DNA from: Starkeya sp. ORNL1
GTDB lineage: Bacteria; Pseudomonadota; Alphaproteobacteria; Rhizobiales; Xanthobacteraceae
Reading direction: 5' to 3'
DNA length: 64,000 nucleotides
Assembly (NCBI RefSeq): GCF_012971745.1
Contig: NZ_CP048834.1
Location: 2,666,001-2,730,000 of the forward strand
Program-made: the position numbers and the translations under genes
Part shown: one piece after another, positions 31,088 to 39,697 of the stretch
Position numbering within the stretch: position 1 is the stretch's first letter
How the letters are laid out: each line of letters opens with the position of its first letter
The notes under the pieces: generated by a model
Told to the model about the DNA's origin: nothing
The model's database searches: none
The model's input: the letters and a program-made list of their open reading frames with translations, nothing else

Positions 31088-31456
31088 TTGTCCAAGACCT
31101 ATTTCACGCCCGACCATGAATGGATCCGCGTCGAGGGTGATGTCGCCACCGTCGGCATCACCGATTACGCGCAGGACCAGCTCGGCGATCTGGTTTTCGT
31201 CCAGCTTCCGGAGAAGGGCGCGGACCTCGCCAAGGGCGACGTCGCCGTGGTGGTCGAGTCCGTCAAGGCGGCGTCCGACGTCTACATGCCGGCGGACGGC
31301 ACCATCCTCAGCGCCAACACCACGCTCTCATCCGACCCGGCTCTGGTGAATTCGGCGCCGACCGCCGAGGGCTGGCTCTGGACGATGACCCTGAAGGACG
31401 CGAGCCAGCTCGACGGCCTGATGGATGAAGCCGGCTACAAAGCCCATATCGGCTGA
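31088..31456 (+). CDS. gcvH: glycine cleavage system H protein (lipoyl carrier)
   Basis: 122 residues from TTG 31088 ([15 protein letters not shown]). AAAGGG at 31074-31079 is correctly spaced for this TTG. An in-frame GTG at 31079 would give a 4-bp GTGA overlap with gcvT and three extra residues. The lipoylation lysine is in [15 protein letters not shown] (about Lys60). The protein shuttles aminomethyl and hydrogen between GcvP, GcvT and dihydrolipoyl dehydrogenase, the last not being encoded here. Confidence 0.95.
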
Positions 31457-31481
31457 CGGCGAGGCAAGAAGAGGCAACACC

Positions 31482-34274
31482 ATGAGCGTCGCATTCTCGT
31501 CCCGCCATATCGGCCCGCGCAGCGAAGATATCCGCACCATGCTGGCGGCGATCGGTGTCCCCTCTGTCGAGACCCTGATCTCGCAGGCGGTGCCGGCCTC
31601 GATCCGGCTCACCCGCCCGCTCGCCTTGCCGGCACCGGCAAGCGAGGCGGAAGCGCTCGCCGAGCTGGCCGCGACGATGGCCGGGAACACGGTGCTGAAG
31701 AGCTTCATCGGCGCCGGCTATCACGGCGTCCATGTTCCTCCGGTGATCCAGCGCAACCTGTTCGAGAACCCGGCCTGGTACACCGCCTATACGCCCTATC
31801 AGGCCGAGATCAGCCAGGGTCGGCTGGAAATGCTGTTCCATTTCCAGACCCTGATCACCGAGCTCACCGGCCTGCCGGTCGCCTCCGCTTCGCTGCTCGA
31901 CGAGGCCACCGCGGTGGCCGAGGCGGTCGGCATCGCCTTCCGCCATCACCGCGAGAAGCGCAACAAGGTGGCGCTTGCCGGCAAGGCGCATCCGCAGACG
32001 CTGGACGTGGTGCGCACCCGCGCCGAGCCGCTCGGCATGATCGTCGATGGCGAGGAGATCGATGCCGACACCGCCGCCCTGCTGGTATCGTGGCCGGACA
32101 CCGAGGGTGTCTATGGCGACCACAAGGCCGCCATCGAGAAGGCCCGCGCGACCGGCGCCGTGGTGGTGTTCATCTGCGATCCGCTCGGCCTGACGCTGAC
32201 CGATGCGCCGGCGAGGCTCGGTGCCGATGTCGCGGTCGGCCCGATGCAGCGGTTCGGCGTGCCGATGGGCTTTGGCGGCCCGCACGCCGCCTATTGCGCG
32301 GTTTCCGACAAGCTCACCCGGCTGATGCCCGGCCGCCTGGTCGGCCAGTCGGTGGATGCCGAGGGGCGGGCGGGCTATCGCCTCGCTTTGCAGACCCGCG
32401 AGCAGCATATCCGCCGCGACAAGGCGACCTCCAATATCTGCACCGCGCAGGCGCTGCTGGCCAATATGGCGGCGGCCTATGCGATCTGGCACGGACCTTC
32501 CGGCCTCCAGGCAATCGCCGGGCGCGTGCACGCGCTGGCGGATCGCCTTGCCCGCGCGCTCGCGGCGGCGGGCCTCTCGGTAATCGGCAGCCAACGCTTC
32601 GACACCGTGACCATCGCCACCGACGGGCAGGCGGCCGCGATTGCCGCCGCGGCCGAGGCTGGTGGCCGGCTGCTGCGGGTGATCGATGCCGATCGCATCA
32701 GCATTGCCTTCGACGAGACCTCGACCGAGGCCGACCTCGAGGCCATCGCCGCGCTGTTCGGCATCGAGGTCGCTCCCGAGGCGTCCGGCTCGATGCCCGG
32801 CTCGCCGCGCGGCCGCGAGTTCCTGACCCAGCCGGTGTTCCATCAGAACCGCTCGGAAACCGAGATGATGCGCTTCCTGCGCCGGCTCGCCGACAAGGAC
32901 CTGGCGCTCGACCGCGCCATGATCCCGCTCGGCTCCTGCACCATGAAGCTCAATGCCGCGGCGGAGATGATGCCGGTGAGCTGGCCGAGCGTCGCGAACC
33001 TGCACCCCTTCGCGCCGGCGGCGCACACCGCCGGCTACCGCGCCATGATCGACGAGCTGGAAGGCTGGCTGGCGGAGATCACCGGCTTCGATGCGGTGAG
33101 CCTGCAGCCAAATGCCGGCAGCCAGGGCGAATATGCCGGCCTGCTCGCTATCCGCCACTATCACGAGGCGCGCGGCGACACGCATCGCACGGTGTGCCTG
33201 ATCCCCTCCTCCGCGCACGGCACCAACCCGGCCAGCGCCTCGATGGCCGGTATGGGCGTGGTCGTGGTCAAATGCACCGAGGATGGCGACATTGACATCG
33301 CCGACCTCAAGGCCAAAGCCGAGCAATATGCCGACCGGCTGGCGGCCTTGATGTTCACCTACCCTTCCACGCACGGCGTGTTCGAGGAAGGCGCCCGGGA
33401 CATCTGCGCCATCGTCCATGCCCATGGCGGGCAGGTCTATTTCGACGGCGCGAATCTCAATGCGCTGGTCGGGCTGGCCCGGCCCGGCGACATCGGCGCC
33501 GATGTCTGCCACATGAATTTGCACAAGACCTTCTGCATTCCCCATGGCGGCGGCGGCCCCGGCATCGGACCGATCGGCGTCAAGGCACACCTCGCGCCCT
33601 ATCTGCCGGGCCATGTCGTGCTGGACTCGGCCCACGCGGTGGCGGCGGCGCCGTTCGGCAGCGCGTCGATCCTGCCCATCACCTGGATGTATATCCGCAT
33701 GATGGGGGCCTCCGGCCTCAAGCAGGCGACGGAGACCGCGATCCTCAGCGCCAATTACATCGCCACCCGGCTGGAGCCGCATTTCCCGGTGCTGTTCAAG
33801 GGCAGCCACGGGCGCGTCGCCCACGAGTGCATTCTCGATGTGCGCGGGTTCAAGGAGGCGGCCGGCATCGGTGTCGAGGATGTCGCCAAGCGGCTGATCG
33901 ATTACGGATTCCATGCGCCGACCATGTCCTGGCCGGTGCCCGGCACGCTGATGGTGGAGCCCACCGAATCCGAGCCGAAGCACGAGCTCGACCGGTTCTG
34001 CGCGGCGATGATCGCCATCGCGCAGGAGGCGGCGAAGGTCTCCGGGGGCGAGTGGCCGCGCGACGACAATCCGCTGGTCAACGCGCCGCACACCGCCGCG
34101 GAGACGCTGGCGAGTGAGTGGCACCATCCCTATTCGCGGCTGGAGGCGGCCTATCCCGCCGGCGATCCTGATGACGGCGCCAAATACTGGCCGCCGGTGT
34201 CGCGCATCGACAATGTCGCCGGCGACCGCAACCTCGTCTGCTCCTGCCCGCCGGTGGAGGCGCTCGCGAGCTGA
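31482..34274 (+). CDS. gcvP: glycine dehydrogenase (decarboxylating), P protein
   Basis: 930 residues from ATG 31482, preceded by AGAGG 8 bp upstream. It is the single-chain form with N-terminal ([17 protein letters not shown]…) and C-terminal halves both present. The pyridoxal-phosphate lysine is near residue 682 in [17 protein letters not shown], with GSCTMKLNA and [12 protein letters not shown] nearby. It decarboxylates glycine and loads the H protein. It is 25 bp after gcvH in the riboswitch-controlled operon; a long inverted repeat beginning 19 bp after its stop may end the transcript. Confidence 0.96.
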
Positions 34275-34487: not shown

Positions 34488-37253
34488 GTGCGTCTCATGG
34501 CCCTCCTCCTGCTGGCATTCTGCCTCGCCGCACCGGCGCAGGCGGCGCGCGATGCGCGCGTCGGGAAGATGATCGACGCACGCGACGAAGCCCTGAAGTT
34601 CAAGCGCGAAGGCAATCTGCCCAAGGCGCAGGAGGCGATCGAACGCGCCATCGCCATCGGCCGCACCATCCCGCAGCGCACCCCGCTCGCCGAGCCGATG
34701 CTGCGCGAAGACCTCGCAATGATCTATCTCGACCAGGGCCGCTACGACGCAGCGGAGACCGAGCTGCGCGCCTCGCTTGCCGCCCGCGCGCAATATGGCA
34801 AGCCGAACGACCCTTCGCTCAACGTTCCGCTGAACGCGCTCGCCACCTCGCTGCTGCGTCAGGGCAAGAGCGCGGAAGCGGCGCCGATCTTCGAGCAGCT
34901 CGTCGACATGGATGCCAAGGCGCAAGGCCCGCAAAGCGTGCAGGTCGCCTACAGCCTGAACAACCTCGCGGGCGCCTATATGGCCTCGGCGCAGCTCGAC
35001 AAGGCCGAGGCGGCGCTGCTGCGCGCCTATGATCTCGGCGCCAAGGCCGGCAAGAAGGGGCAGGAGGCGGTCGCCAATTCCGCGACCAACCTCGCCGGCC
35101 TCTACAAGCACCTGCAGCGCTACAATGATGCGGAGAAATTCTACCGTATCAGCATGGACACCTGGGGCCGGCTGCGGCCCAAGGATTCGCCCGAAGTGCT
35201 TCTGGCGACCAATAATCTCGGCGTCTATTACCGCGACCGCGGCCGCTACGACCAGGCGCAGCCGCTGCTGGACTTCGTGTTCGATACCCGCCTCGGCCGG
35301 CTCGGGCAGGACAATCCGGACGTCGCGCTCTCCGCCAATAATCTCGGCTGGCTGCATGCCGGCAAGCAGGAATGGGCCTATGCCGCCCAGCTCTTCACCG
35401 CGTCCATGGGCACCTATACCGAATTGCGCCGGCGCCAGGCCGCGGCCGCGCTCGCCGGCAAGGGCACGACCGGCGTCTCGCTGCACGAATTGTCCCGCCC
35501 GGTGAGCGGGCTGGTCGGCACCGCCTATCGCTTCGCGGTCGATGCGCCGGCCGACAAGCAGGCTGCGGTGCGCGACACCGCCTTCATGGCGGCGCAGTGG
35601 CTGTCTCAGGGAGAGGCGGCGACCGCGCTGGCCCGCACCTCGGCGCGCTTTTCCGCCGGTTCCGGCCAGCTGGCCTCCCTGGTGCGCGAGCAGCAGGATC
35701 TCGCTTCGGAATGGGGCAAGCTCGATGGTGCGGTGACGGCCGCGCTGGCCGACCCCAGGGCCCGCAATTCGGTGCAGATGAAGGCGGCGCGCGACCGGCT
35801 CGCCGCTATCGATACCCGCCTCGGCGAAATCGCCGGGCAGATCGCCGGGCGGTTCCCGGACTATGCGACGCTGGCCGACCCGCAGCCGGTGGACCTGGTC
35901 GACATCCAGAAAGTGCTGCAGCCCGACGAGGCGCTGATCGCCTATGCCTTCTTCCCGGAATCGACGCTCGGCAAGAGCTGGATCTGGGTGGTCACCAAGA
36001 ACGACGCCATCTGGGCGGCGTTGCAGATCGCACCGGAGGACATCGCCTTCACCGTGGCCAAGTTGCGCTGCGGGCTCGATTACGGCGCCATCGAAGCCGA
36101 GGCGACGGCGAAATTCTGCGCCGGCTTCGGCGCCGATGCGGACCAGCAGAGACTGGCGCCGTTCGACGCCATGCTGTCCTACCAGCTCTGGCAGAGCATA
36201 CTCGGCCCGGCAGCGGCGCAGCTGAAGGGCAAGAAGCTGCTGCTGGTGACGCCGGAGCCGCTCGCCGCGCTGCCGTTCCAGGTGCTGGTGACCGAGGAGC
36301 CGAAGGTGGCGAAGCCCGAGAGCGGCGCCGACCTGAAAGCCACCGCCTTCCTCGGCCGCAGCAATGCCATCACCGTGCTGCCTTCCATCGCCGCGCTGCG
36401 CACCATGCGCACCAATGCCAAGGCCAGCGCCGCGCCCGACGCCTATCTCGGCTTCGGCGACCCGGTGCTGACAGGAACCCGCAGCTGCCCGCGCATTCCG
36501 GCTCCCGACGCTTGCCCGACGATCGCCTCATCGGCCGGCATCACCCGGCAGGCCCGCGCTGCGCGCGCCGCCGGCGGCATGACGCAAGTGGCGATGGCGG
36601 ACGGGATCGGCCTCGCCGATGCCGATGCGGTGCGCCTGCTCTGCCCGCTCGCCGACACCGCGACCGAGATCAAATGCGTCGGCGCCAGCCTCGGCGCGGC
36701 GCCGGCGACCATGCATATCGGGCCGGACGCCAGCGAGGCCGAGCTGAAGAAGCTGCCGCTCGAGCGCTACCGCGTGCTGCATTTCGCCACCCACGGGCTG
36801 CTCGCTGGCGACACCAGCCAAATGTCCGCCGGCCTCGCCGAGCCGGCTCTGGTGCTGACGCCGCCGGCGCGGGCAAGCGCGCTCGATGACGGCCTGCTGA
36901 CCGCCAGCGAGATCGCCGCGCTGAAGCTCGATGCCGACTGGGTGATCCTCTCGGCCTGCAACACCGCCGCCGGCAACGGCCATGGCGAGACGCTCTCGGG
37001 CCTTGCCCGCGCCTTCCTCTATGCCGGAAGCCGGGCGCTGCTGGTCTCGCACTGGCCGGTGACCTCGTCCGCGGCGGTGGAGCTGACCACCGGCGCCTTC
37101 GACGCCATCAAGGCCGACCCCACGCTCGGCCGCGCCGAGGCGATGCGGCGCTCGATGTCGGCACTGATCGACACCGGCGACGACTTCATGGCGCATCCGA
37201 GCTATTGGGCGCCATTCTCCGTGGTCGGCGAAGGCGACGCGCCGGCGCCATAG
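34488..37253 (+). CDS. exported TPR-repeat CHAT-domain protein (caspase-like fold)
   Basis: 921 residues from GTG 34488, spaced correctly from GGGAGG; TTG 34482 and ATG 34497 are in frame. A signal peptide (LMALLLLAFCLAAPAQA) precedes about seven TPR units (residues about 30-300; e.g. LNNLAGAYMASAQLDKAEAAL), a linker helix region, then a CHAT domain (about 600-915). The catalytic dyad is present: His769 (LHFATHGLL) and Cys824 (ILSACNTAAG). CHAT domains are cysteine peptidases related to separase and caspase; targets vary. The signal peptide places it in the periplasm or outside. It converges on a FecR-like/CHASE2 pair. Confidence 0.85.
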   Translation: MRLMALLLLAFCLAAPAQAARDARVGKMIDARDEALKFKREGNLPKAQEAIERAIAIGRTIPQRTPLAEPMLREDLAMIYLDQGRYDAAETELRASLAARAQYGKPNDPSLNVPLNALATSLLRQGKSAEAAPIFEQLVDMDAKAQGPQSVQVAYSLNNLAGAYMASAQLDKAEAALLRAYDLGAKAGKKGQEAVANSATNLAGLYKHLQRYNDAEKFYRISMDTWGRLRPKDSPEVLLATNNLGVYYRDRGRYDQAQPLLDFVFDTRLGRLGQDNPDVALSANNLGWLHAGKQEWAYAAQLFTASMGTYTELRRRQAAAALAGKGTTGVSLHELSRPVSGLVGTAYRFAVDAPADKQAAVRDTAFMAAQWLSQGEAATALARTSARFSAGSGQLASLVREQQDLASEWGKLDGAVTAALADPRARNSVQMKAARDRLAAIDTRLGEIAGQIAGRFPDYATLADPQPVDLVDIQKVLQPDEALIAYAFFPESTLGKSWIWVVTKNDAIWAALQIAPEDIAFTVAKLRCGLDYGAIEAEATAKFCAGFGADADQQRLAPFDAMLSYQLWQSILGPAAAQLKGKKLLLVTPEPLAALPFQVLVTEEPKVAKPESGADLKATAFLGRSNAITVLPSIAALRTMRTNAKASAAPDAYLGFGDPVLTGTRSCPRIPAPDACPTIASSAGITRQARAARAAGGMTQVAMADGIGLADADAVRLLCPLADTATEIKCVGASLGAAPATMHIGPDASEAELKKLPLERYRVLHFATHGLLAGDTSQMSAGLAEPALVLTPPARASALDDGLLTASEIAALKLDADWVILSACNTAAGNGHGETLSGLARAFLYAGSRALLVSHWPVTSSAAVELTTGAFDAIKADPTLGRAEAMRRSMSALIDTGDDFMAHPSYWAPFSVVGEGDAPAP

Positions 37254-37258
37254 ATCAC

Positions 37259-37360
37259 GATGAGTTGGGATCGGGTCGATCCAAACTCGTCGAGATCGTC
37301 TCTAATAAGTTGAGCATGATGTCGTCCGAAAACCGCTTCGCACTTTTCGGCATAATGCTC
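37259..37360. repeat. composite palindromic repeat, GAGCATG family, copy 3
   Basis: An imperfect hairpin GAGTTGGGATCG/CGATCCAAACTC (about 37262-37290) is followed by GAGCATGATGTCGTCCGAAAA-N8-CACTTTTCGGCATAATGCTC (37312-37360). The second module is the widespread rhizobial GAGCATG…CATGCTC palindrome. It fills the 109-bp gap between convergent genes and may terminate both. Confidence 0.8.
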
Positions 37361-37362
37361 GA

Positions 37363-38241
37363 CTATTTCAGCCCGCCCTCGGCCAGCGTCCAGAACAGCT
37401 TGTCGGCCGGGGCGAAGTCGCGGGTGAAGGGCTCGACGCGCTGGAACGCCTCCAGCCGCCATTCCGGGCCCTTCATGGCGAGGAAGGTGGCCGCACCCAG
37501 CGCGCGCATCGCCGGCGGCAGCGCCTCGCGGGTCAGCTCGGCGGGGATGGCCGGCACCTTGTCGGCGGCGACAACGTGCAGGGTCGCACTCAGCGCCTTG
37601 CCGCCGCGCGGGGTGATCTCGACGGTGTAGTCGCCGGGCACAAGATCGAGCGGCGCCGACGTCCACACTCCTCCGCTACCCTTGGCCTCGCTGACCAGTG
37701 GCGCCCCCTTGGCCGGGCGGATGGTCACGGTCACGCCGAGCCGTTCCGGCAGCCAGCCGAGGGTGAGCGTGCGCTTGCCGGCAACCAGTGTCTGCGGGCT
37801 CGCCAGCAGCGGCACCTTGAGTTCGCCGCCGCCGCTGCGGATGCTGGCGGAAACGCGCGTGCGCTCCGGCGTGTCGAGCAGGTTGAGCGCATCGAGGATG
37901 GAATCCCAGGCGCCGTCGAGCAGGCTGCGTGCCGGCGCCGCCGCCTTGACCACATACTCGCCGCGCGCGGCGGTGATCACCACCGGCTCGGGCCGGTCCA
38001 TCAGCCGCAGCACGACGCGCTCATCCGGCCGCACCAGCAGGATGCGGTCGCCCTGCAGCACCCGCGCGCACAGCCGCAACGGCACGATCTGGTCGCCGCG
38101 CAGGAGCGTCATGGCCGCGCCTTCCGGCGCATAGGCCTCGATGAAGCCGACCTCCTGCTCCTTCACCTGCGTGAAGGCGGGGGCGAGCATGGCGAACAGC
38201 GCAAGGCACGCCCAAAGGCACGTCCTGATCAGCACCGGCAT
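37363..38241 (-). CDS. exported FecR-like beta-rich protein
   Basis: 292 residues from ATG 38241. A signal peptide (LIRTCLWACLALFAMLAPAFTQ) is followed by a region (GAAMTLLRGDQIVPLRLCARVLQGDRILLVRPDERVVLRL, residues about 35-90) with the spacing of FecR-type domains. A second beta-rich part follows (LTLGWLPERLGVTVTI, DLVPGDYTVEI), resembling an Ig-like fold. No membrane anchor is visible after the signal. It follows the CHASE2 gene by 22 bp in the same direction and converges with the TPR-CHAT gene. Function unknown; the FecR resemblance is weak to moderate. Confidence 0.65.
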   Translation of the reverse strand: MPVLIRTCLWACLALFAMLAPAFTQVKEQEVGFIEAYAPEGAAMTLLRGDQIVPLRLCARVLQGDRILLVRPDERVVLRLMDRPEPVVITAARGEYVVKAAAPARSLLDGAWDSILDALNLLDTPERTRVSASIRSGGGELKVPLLASPQTLVAGKRTLTLGWLPERLGVTVTIRPAKGAPLVSEAKGSGGVWTSAPLDLVPGDYTVEITPRGGKALSATLHVVAADKVPAIPAELTREALPPAMRALGAATFLAMKGPEWRLEAFQRVEPFTRDFAPADKLFWTLAEGGLK

Positions 38242-38263
38242 GGCCGCTCGCCTCCCTCTGCCG

Positions 38264-39697
38264 TCATTTGCCCTCGCCATGGTCGGCCAGCAGGGCACGG
38301 AAACCCTTGCTGCGCACCAGTTCGACCCGCTCGATGATCTCCAGCAGGAATTTATGCGCGAAGACGCCGAACGACGGCACCGCAAGATCCAGCATCACCC
38401 CGGATTTGAACAGCAGCGCGGAAGGGATGGTCAGCAGCACCAGGAAGAGGCTGGCGGCGATGCTGGCGCCGAACGGCCGGAGCACCGCGAACAGCCAGGC
38501 CACCACGATGATGATGCCGAGCGCGATCGGCAGGCGCTGCCACCAGGGCGGCTCGTGCGGCGTGCCGTATTGCGCCAATGCGTGCGCGGCATTGACCACC
38601 AGCAGCGCGCCGGGCATGGCGCCAAGCGGGGTGTTGTGCCAGTCGCCGCTGTCGCGGAAGCTGCCGCCGATGACGACGAGACGGCCCTCCAGCCCGTCGA
38701 TCGCCTCGCCGGCCGAGGCGGCAAGCACGATGCGGGCGGGGCGCACCGCCACCAGCGGCCGGCTGGAGCCGTTCTCGACCGCCGTCGGCCCGAGGCCAAC
38801 GGCGCCCGTGCGCCAGGCAATGGTGTAGATGACGCGGACCGAACTCTCCTTCAGCGAGAGTTCGATCTCCGGATGCTCAGAGACGCGCCTGGCCGGTGCC
38901 GCGCGCGCAGCCGCACCGCAGCGGTCCGGGATGAACTGTGCCAGTGTGGAGGTGACGGCCTCGGCGACCTCCGGGCGGTCCTTCCGGGCATCGATGGCCT
39001 GCGCCGCCAGCATCAGCTGGGCGGCCGGCAGTGCCGCCGGTGCCTCGCCGTCGCAGACGAAGTCGAACAGCCGCGCATAGCGCACGACACCGTCGGCATC
39101 GCGCTCGAACAGCGGCGACACCCAGCGATAGCCAGGCCGCGTGGCAGTGGATACGCCCACGCCGGCCGATGGCGGTGCCTGCACGGCCGCTGCGAAGGGA
39201 GTGCTCTGCAGCCGCGGCCATTGGTCGGGATCTTTAGGCGCGCGGCTGACCAGGCTGCGCACCATGAGGACCGGCGGGCCATTGGCATTGTCGCGCTTGA
39301 GCACATCGGCGAGCGCGCTTTGCCCTGAGGTGTCCGGCCAGGCGAGATCGACGTCGAGCAGCACGGCGAGCGGCTTCGAGGCCATCACCCGGTCGAGGAG
39401 GCCGGCCAGCTTGTCGCGTGGGGCAACCAGCGGATAGCCCCAGTCGCGCCAGGTCTCGTCGTCGATATCGACGAACACATAGGGCGTCGCGTGCTCCACC
39501 GTGCCGGTGAGGCGCTCATGGATGCGGATGGCATCGTCCACCAACCCATCGCCGAGATCGCGCAGCAGGCGGGTGTCGCTGAAGAGCAGCGGCACGGCGA
39601 CGAACTCGACGATCAGGCCGAACACGATGCCGATGGCGACGTCAGTGAGTATCTTGTGACGCTCGGCAAACCCCGCGACAGCCGACCACCAGCGCAT
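38264..39697 (-). CDS. CHASE2-domain membrane sensor without an output domain
   Basis: 477 residues. One N-terminal helix (KILTDVAIGIVFGLIVEFVAV), then a large extracytoplasmic CHASE2 domain (about 50-385), shown by VFVDIDDETWRDWGYP…AVLLDVDLAWPD near the start and GRLVVIGGSFRDSGDWHNTPLGAMPG near the end. Two closing helices (LGIIIVVAWLFAVL, SIAASLFLVLLTIPSALLF) follow. CHASE2 normally senses signals for kinases or cyclases. Here only about 45 residues follow the last helices, with no catalytic domain, so any output must be a partner protein. It is probably cotranscribed with the FecR-like gene. Confidence 0.82.
   Translation of the reverse strand: MRWWSAVAGFAERHKILTDVAIGIVFGLIVEFVAVPLLFSDTRLLRDLGDGLVDDAIRIHERLTGTVEHATPYVFVDIDDETWRDWGYPLVAPRDKLAGLLDRVMASKPLAVLLDVDLAWPDTSGQSALADVLKRDNANGPPVLMVRSLVSRAPKDPDQWPRLQSTPFAAAVQAPPSAGVGVSTATRPGYRWVSPLFERDADGVVRYARLFDFVCDGEAPAALPAAQLMLAAQAIDARKDRPEVAEAVTSTLAQFIPDRCGAAARAAPARRVSEHPEIELSLKESSVRVIYTIAWRTGAVGLGPTAVENGSSRPLVAVRPARIVLAASAGEAIDGLEGRLVVIGGSFRDSGDWHNTPLGAMPGALLVVNAAHALAQYGTPHEPPWWQRLPIALGIIIVVAWLFAVLRPFGASIAASLFLVLLTIPSALLFKSGVMLDLAVPSFGVFAHKFLLEIIERVELVRSKGFRALLADHGEGK

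Follow-up and report, generated by a model that had tools for sequence, protein, structure and literature searches.

The stretch of DNA analyzed here (the window) comprises 64,000 nucleotides of the genome of Starkeya sp. ORNL1 (NCBI RefSeq assembly GCF_012971745.1, contig NZ_CP048834.1, positions 2,666,001 to 2,730,000 of the forward strand). Positions 34,488 to 39,697 of the window encode three neighboring proteins, a peptidase with a CHAT domain and TPR repeats, a small FecR-like protein and a membrane protein with a CHASE2 domain, which had been proposed in a sequence-only reading to form an unclassified envelope sensing module. We found that genes of these kinds recur together in 23 genomes, and we refer to the three-gene set, with either CHAT or C14 as the peptidase, as the module. 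The features of the window locus are as follows.

34488..37253, + strand: CHAT-TPR peptidase of exported type, 921 amino acids (aa) from GTG; Pfam CHAT and TPR_12, signal-peptide-like N-terminus by hydropathy
36183..37229, + strand: CHAT domain by Pfam, residues 568-916 counted from TTG 34482
36792..36794, + strand: codon of the putative catalytic His769 (residue 1 is GTG 34488); His kept in 10/10 module CHAT proteins
36957..36959, + strand: codon of the putative catalytic Cys824 (same numbering); Cys kept in 10/10 module CHAT proteins
37363..38241, - strand: FecR-like protein of exported type, 292 aa from ATG; hydrophobic N-terminus, predicted N-terminal beta domain, Ig-like beta-sandwich and three C-terminal helices
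38264..39697, - strand: stand-alone CHASE2 membrane protein, 477 aa, without output domain; Pfam CHASE2, member of the module clade, helices by hydropathy

The CHASE2 and FecR-like genes share a strand with 22 bp between them, and the CHAT gene converges on the FecR-like gene across a gap of 109 bp. On either side of the module, Pfam identifies genes for the P-protein of glycine cleavage and for a carbohydrate kinase of the FGGY family. The CHAT-TPR protein scores far above the Pfam cut-off for CHAT (PF12770; E 9.1e-49, 166.9 bits versus a cut-off of 24) and also matches TPR_12 (E 2.2e-38). Its frame can start at GTG 34488, with TTG 34482 and ATG 34497 also in frame, and stops at 37253. The His-Cys dyad is intact, with His769 in ATHG and Cys824 in SACNT, and the N-terminus, MALLLLAFCLAAPAQA, resembles a signal peptide by hydropathy. 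By domain score and dyad, the protein is assigned to the CHAT peptidase family, and proteolytic activity is predicted. The three open reading frames, the TPR protein of exported type with a CHAT domain and intact dyad, and the placement of the convergent CHAT gene outside the CHASE2/FecR-like operon are thus all as originally read. A phmmer search against PDB sequences listed 18 entries for the CHAT-TPR protein, comprising kinesin light chains, relatives from bacteria, and repeat proteins that are designed or resemble TPR, and none of them was a CHAT protein. For the closest relative of the window CHAT, in genome G045, the contig extends 4.1 kb on one side, and no CHASE2 or FecR-like gene lies in that span. 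A reading of the locus as a defense system was dropped when a PADLOC scan of the three window proteins gave no convincing match, the sole one being BovA (E 0.0076, 12.9 bits).

The CHASE2 protein of the window is well supported by Pfam (PF05226; E 5.7e-22, 79 bits versus a cut-off of 26.3). Hydropathy places an N-terminal helix at residues 20-38 and two clear C-terminal helices at 389-407 and 412-430; a third C-terminal helix, included in the three that had been claimed, is plausible and falls below the threshold. All 22 module CHASE2 proteins assessed in this way have one N-terminal and two or more C-terminal helices. No output domain exceeded its Pfam cut-off in the three scanned (window, L074 and L161), in agreement with the earlier claim, and the module sequences stop soon after the C-terminal helices, save for longer tails in L074, L075 and L077. 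A search of PDB sequences with the CHASE2 profile returned nothing below E 0.28, and no plasmid matched the CHASE2 protein of the window, L161 or L148. In the alignment of module CHASE2 proteins (A6), Cys215 of the outside domain is fully conserved and Cys260 almost so, a possible disulphide.

The third protein is more difficult to classify. The FecR-like protein of the window has no Pfam match at E<=1, and Pfam FecR (PF04773) was not matched by any of the five family members scanned (window, L074, L079, L158 and L148). 'FecR-like' is therefore used as a remote label, drawn from profiles and the domain arrangement of a structure model. Two Pfam-confirmed FecR proteins (L217 and L218) match the FecR-like profile with genome E-values of 1.3e-5 and 1.2e-4, while hhalign comparison with FecR gave probabilities of 7 and 45%; remote homology to FecR in the N-terminal domain is tentative. 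For 138 residues the structure model resembles MtxA in its Ig-TPR part, and 'FecR-Ig-helical, MtxA-like protein' would be a better description than FecR. The hydrophobic N-terminus agrees with the proposal of a secreted protein, and the FecR label in that proposal is a remote one. Across the phylum, the FecR-like profile matched in 4 of 289 genomes, including that of the window; the matches elsewhere were classic FecR proteins (G1095; L217/L218) or short matches in frames of 4873 and 7792 codons. The stretches fetched for L217/L218 contain no CHASE2, C14 or CHAT.

Linkage of the three genes was assessed at increasing phylogenetic distance. A search of 29 genomes of the same genus did not turn up the module; the sole CHASE2 match there (G021) lies in a 758-codon frame and groups with output-domain CHASE2 proteins; the module profile had no match in the 11 same-genus genomes listed. 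The glycine cleavage P-protein gene next to the window module (31425-34274) had no match in five same-genus genomes (G010, G011, G015, G016 and G019), which made a synteny comparison within the genus impossible. At the level of the order, the window CHASE2 protein matched in 12 of 297 genomes, its own included. Six of the other genomes gave strong matches, with E about 1e-20 or below (G047, G095, G131, G163, G282 and G324), and in the neighborhoods of all six a caspase-type protein occurs together with a further member of the FecR-like family. Profiles were built from these seven loci (the window and the six strong matches), and further loci were fetched by CHASE2 alone. In this second round of 16 loci (L148-L163), 14 have a peptidase gene (C14 or CHAT) together with a FecR-like gene, the latter matched at E 2.1e-14 or better, and the two with longer CHASE2 frames (L162 and L163) have neither. 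Twenty control loci (19 picked up by the profile, their CHASE2 frames 619-863 codons long, and L177, recognized by Pfam only) contain no CHAT and no FecR-like family member apart from one 8-bit match in a 1019-codon frame (L175); one (L171) has C14 about 4 kb away. Among 20 more loci picked for short frames, the module is present in L197 and in L204/L205, which are two halves of one genome, and absent in the other 17.

Overall, among loci fetched by CHASE2 alone, both partners are present in 16 of 16 genomes with the module type of CHASE2, versus none of 39 other CHASE2 loci (Fisher p ~3e-14, a value that overstates independence because the loci are related). In this comparison, L158-L161 were chosen by frame length, and in ten of the 39 comparison loci the visible sequence to one side of CHASE2 is shorter than 3 kb. 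Every one of the 23 genomes with the module CHASE2 type has a member of the FecR-like family and, within 3 kb of it, a clan-CD peptidase. These genomes span six families, four in the order (f1, f2, f12 and f23) and two elsewhere in the class (f61 and f172), a count that includes one genome (G823, L204/L205) that is not on the CHASE2 tree described below. The linkage of the three genes is not due to chance. The expectation of conserved linkage across relatives was not borne out within the genus and held beyond it, and because it holds in 23/23 genomes beyond the genus, the ideas of an unclassified envelope module and of a CHASE2 protein that must act through a partner fit these results. The earlier interpretation as a whole is partly supported, its order of sensor, mediator and protease being a proposed direction of flow.

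Phylogenetic analysis of 52 CHASE2 regions places the 22 module proteins in one clade with support of 100/99, apart from 24 output-domain CHASE2 proteins and six other short ones. Matches spanning fewer than 250 residues were omitted from the tree, as were L177, which has no profile match, and L204/L205, where one gene is spread over two unjoined contigs. The window protein sits on a long branch, with a best identity of 27%. Profile score alone was abandoned as a discriminator, as L158-L161 did not outscore the controls L162 and L163 with the first profile; module and control CHASE2 proteins were therefore told apart by the tree, based on an extended alignment, and by their neighbors. We also dropped the notion that every stand-alone CHASE2 is of the module type, given short frames in L186, L187, L198, L200, L202 and L203 with no partners in view. 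Outside the module clade, L196:7696-12310 encodes a CHASE2-cyclase with C14 genes starting 1.2 kb away.

CHASE2 and FecR-like genes are on the same strand in all 23 genomes and adjacent in 19, with gaps of -23 to 67 bp by the start calls of this analysis; in the other arrangement, seen in four loci of family f12, the FecR-like and C14 genes come first and CHASE2 after. The nearest peptidase, within 3 kb of the FecR-like gene throughout, is C14 in 17 genomes and CHAT in six, so that CHAT, which had been taken as the peptidase of the module, fills this role in a minority. A tail-to-tail arrangement of CHAT and FecR-like genes is found in L158-L161 and L197 (15-37 bp) in addition to the window, and of C14 and FecR-like genes in L155-L157 (3-363 bp). 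From inspection of open reading frames, the flanking genes appear to differ among families, with the neighbors of L151-L154 viewed in part.

Some loci carry additional proteases. In L148-L150 and L205, from a genus within the family of the window, a TPR-like protein and CHAT are encoded by separate adjoining genes, and C14 and a trypsin-like gene occur at the same loci (for example L149:13628-17739), forming clusters of several protease genes with export-type N-termini, although the gene model in L205 is uncertain. The trypsin motif is present in all four; L149, the one scanned, matches Pfam Trypsin (E 2e-47), and its TPR-like protein has a weak Pfam TPR match. In one family, the gene directly upstream of CHASE2 encodes an astacin-like metalloprotease (L078:9881-12095, L154:10494-11519, L156:10054-11058 and L157:8169-9317). 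All four contain the HExxHxxGxxHE motif, and those in L078, L154 and L156 match Pfam Astacin at or just under the cut-off. In L160 (177-4478), a gene for a 1434-aa exoprotein with a two-partner secretion (TPS) domain is directly upstream of a CHAT lipoprotein gene, its end meeting the start of the latter; a long frame at the same place in L161 has no Pfam match.

The peptidases themselves were confirmed as C14 or CHAT by Pfam in 22 of the 23 module genomes, in L078 through the farther of two C14 genes and in L151 only when the domain was scanned alone. The remaining one, in L079, has no Pfam match and was called from our own profile, of which L079 is a seed, together with its GHG and DTCHSG motifs. 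The dyad is complete throughout: among C14 proteins His is kept in 21/21 and Cys in 22/22, a fragment at a contig end (L155) being counted for Cys and not for His, and among CHAT proteins both residues are kept in 10/10. For alphaproteobacterial metacaspases, an intact dyad has been reported in 75% (PMC3501461). The N-termini of module peptidases resemble signal peptides by hydropathy, and five module CHATs have a lipobox. Since the choice of start favors hydrophobic N-termini, the same choice was applied to the other genes of the loci. At a threshold of 2.0, 45 of 47 FecR-like, C14 and CHAT models have a hydrophobic N-terminus in comparison with 77 of 185 other genes, and at 2.6 the counts are 26/47 and 33/185; the 47 models represent 55 such module proteins, the rest having no matching model. 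In a tree of 39 CHATs, those of the module fall in separate places with three label changes, at least two of them forced, and long branches were flagged. On this tree the module CHATs are not one group, and C14 occupies the same place in other loci. We state only this much and have dropped a firm claim that CHAT was recruited several times, because of the long branches and because the changes may include losses. The Starkeya genome also has two adjoining C14 caspase-domain frames (G000:C1:2887401-2889024), about 180 kb from the module.

Pairing of CHASE2 with FecR extends beyond the module. In 15 of 22 control loci, a classic FecR profile finds a match no more than about 3 kb from CHASE2, two of the matches being in overlapping stop-free frames (L170 and L181); the final profile was built from L213-L215, with two of the three seeds coming from control locus L173. 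Pfam FecR agreed in all eight control proteins tested. A second CHASE2 protein of the Starkeya genome, of output-domain length, is encoded beside two classic FecR genes (G000:C1:373383-377863). In published systems, the Burkholderia BiofilmReg operon combines a LysM-FecR protein with a CHASE2 kinase (PMC5192318), a Campylobacterota cluster combines a CHASE2 cyclase with FecR and TPR proteins (PMC9239204), and downstream of mtxA lies a CHASE2-cyclase gene (PMC4439547). Sinorhizobium meliloti CyaD1 without CHASE2 produces cAMP constitutively (PMC5498481), and CHASE2 cyclases answer to a plant protein via an outer-membrane protein (PMC13001267). The pairing in control loci and in the literature suggests that FecR and CHASE2 form a trans-envelope receptor whose outputs can be exchanged.

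We favor, with a probability of roughly 50%, a model in which the FecR-like and CHASE2 proteins form an envelope sensor pair whose output is provided in trans by a caspase-fold peptidase outside the inner membrane, gated by the pair. CHASE2 would be an inner-membrane protein whose sensory domain faces outward, and the exported FecR-like protein would be its periplasmic partner, in the place held by FecR/MtxA-type proteins beside CHASE2 cyclases and kinases. Both would receive a signal in the envelope, which CHASE2, lacking a recognized cytoplasmic output domain, would relay outside the membrane. The sole further partner that all module genomes share is a caspase-fold peptidase whose N-terminus is of the export type. 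This separate exported enzyme, of the CHAT family in the window and of the C14 family in most relatives, may replace the fused kinase or cyclase, and the pair may hold or switch it in the periplasm, with the TPR or other repeat domain of the peptidase as a possible docking site. Beyond the observed gene content, export-type N-termini, intact dyads, linkage, CHASE2 clade and occupation of the same place by peptidases of separate lineages, we infer that the three proteins meet, that the signal travels from the CHASE2/FecR-like pair to the peptidase, and that the peptidase cleaves an envelope protein.

The main rival, which we regard as rather unlikely, reverses this flow: the exported caspase-fold peptidase would act upstream, with CHASE2/FecR-like as its membrane receptor, inhibitor or cleavage target, in regulated proteolysis or self-protection. 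The linkage data fit this direction equally, the peptidase dyads are intact, and FecR proteins of iron systems undergo regulated proteolysis. Yet 20 of 22 control CHASE2 loci have no C14, CHAT or FecR-like match (the exceptions being C14 in L171 and the weak FecR-like match in L175), while the 15 noted above have a classic FecR. FecR thus stands beside CHASE2 receptors with no peptidase in view, and the pair therefore fits the role of a sensor better than that of a dedicated inhibitor. An improbable alternative is that the peptidases are secreted or surface enzymes for nutrition, adhesin processing or competition, and that the CHASE2/FecR-like pair controls or anchors a larger protease locus with other exported proteases. 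The exported trypsin-like neighbors in L148-L150 and L205, the astacin-like ones in L078, L154, L156 and L157, and the TPS exoprotein gene of L160 speak for it; however, no trypsin or astacin motif adjoins the window module (genes inspected from 29.9 to 46.6 kb), and CHASE2 and FecR-like are constant across loci where the extra proteases are not. That the window CHAT is a chance neighbor of a CHASE2/FecR-like pair working with something else would agree with its convergent gene, its common family and the module not having been found elsewhere in the genus, but we consider it very doubtful in light of the same tail-to-tail CHAT in five genomes of two other families (L158-L161 and L197), the clan-CD peptidase near FecR-like in each genome with a module CHASE2, and the lack of any C14 to fill this place in the window, where the two C14 matches of the genome are far off.

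A broader and more tentative reading is that of alphaproteobacterial caspase-type proteolysis in the periplasm under the control of a receptor. Here FecR/CHASE2 would be the trans-envelope receptor and proteolysis by an exported caspase-fold enzyme the 'second messenger', and in some genomes a larger exported set (C14, CHAT, trypsin and astacin) could form an extracytoplasmic protease cascade. CHASE2-caspase fusions, caspase-domain proteins with possible signal peptides, and CHASE2/FecR pairs are already known. Among the open-licence papers listed in our searches, none was seen to describe the three-gene set with the peptidase in trans, although the supplementary operon table of PMC3501461 could list some. 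In the models of bacterial caspase homologs covered here, the acting domain is cytoplasmic even with CHASE2 attached (PMC3501461, PMC7475262). A clade with dyad-intact, export-type clan-CD peptidases beside a membrane sensor pair in all genomes found would put caspase-type signaling outside the inner membrane, and the module names testable partners for it. The CHASE2/FecR receptors, with kinases and cyclases as known outputs, would gain a possible third kind. The conserved recurrence of the three genes suggests that an extracytoplasmic protease takes the place of the usual inner signal of the sensor.

Several known systems share parts of this arrangement. TPR-CHAT of type III-E CRISPR (Craspase) likewise joins TPR and CHAT in one protein, which is cytoplasmic and encoded beside the gRAMP effector. 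In contrast, the window protein has a signal-peptide-like N-terminus by hydropathy. Its gene neighbors by Pfam are the glycine cleavage P-protein and FGGY kinase, no search aimed at gRAMP having been made. The FecR anti-sigma/iron sensor (PF04773) has remote N-terminal profile similarity to the FecR-like protein, which differs in having no Pfam match and an export-type N-terminus followed, in the structure model, by Ig-like and helical parts. A caspase-CHASE2 fusion protein has been described in Trichodesmium erythraeum (PMC3501461, PMC2853523), with its caspase domain assigned to the cytoplasm (PMC3501461), and EACC2-caspase proteins have variable C-termini, CHASE2 among them (PMC8195603). 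These fusions also tie a caspase-fold domain to CHASE2, whereas in the module the peptidase stands as a protein of its own, with an N-terminus of export type, and a third partner is present. Out of 671 bacterial caspase-domain proteins, 98 were assigned to the membrane (mostly with an N-terminal helix that is possibly a signal peptide), 30 as extracellular and 7 as intracellular, with 529 having no information (PMC3501461). Possible export is common to these metacaspases and the module, and CHASE2/FecR-like partners are not described in the part of that paper covered. The CHASE2 cyclase or kinase systems with FecR or MtxA share with the module a CHASE2 domain bounded by helices in the membrane and, within one cluster, an exported partner of FecR or Ig-TPR type. 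The module is distinguished from them by a CHASE2 protein that has no cytoplasmic output domain, by a FecR-like family distinct in sequence, and by a clan-CD peptidase within 3 kb at every locus found.

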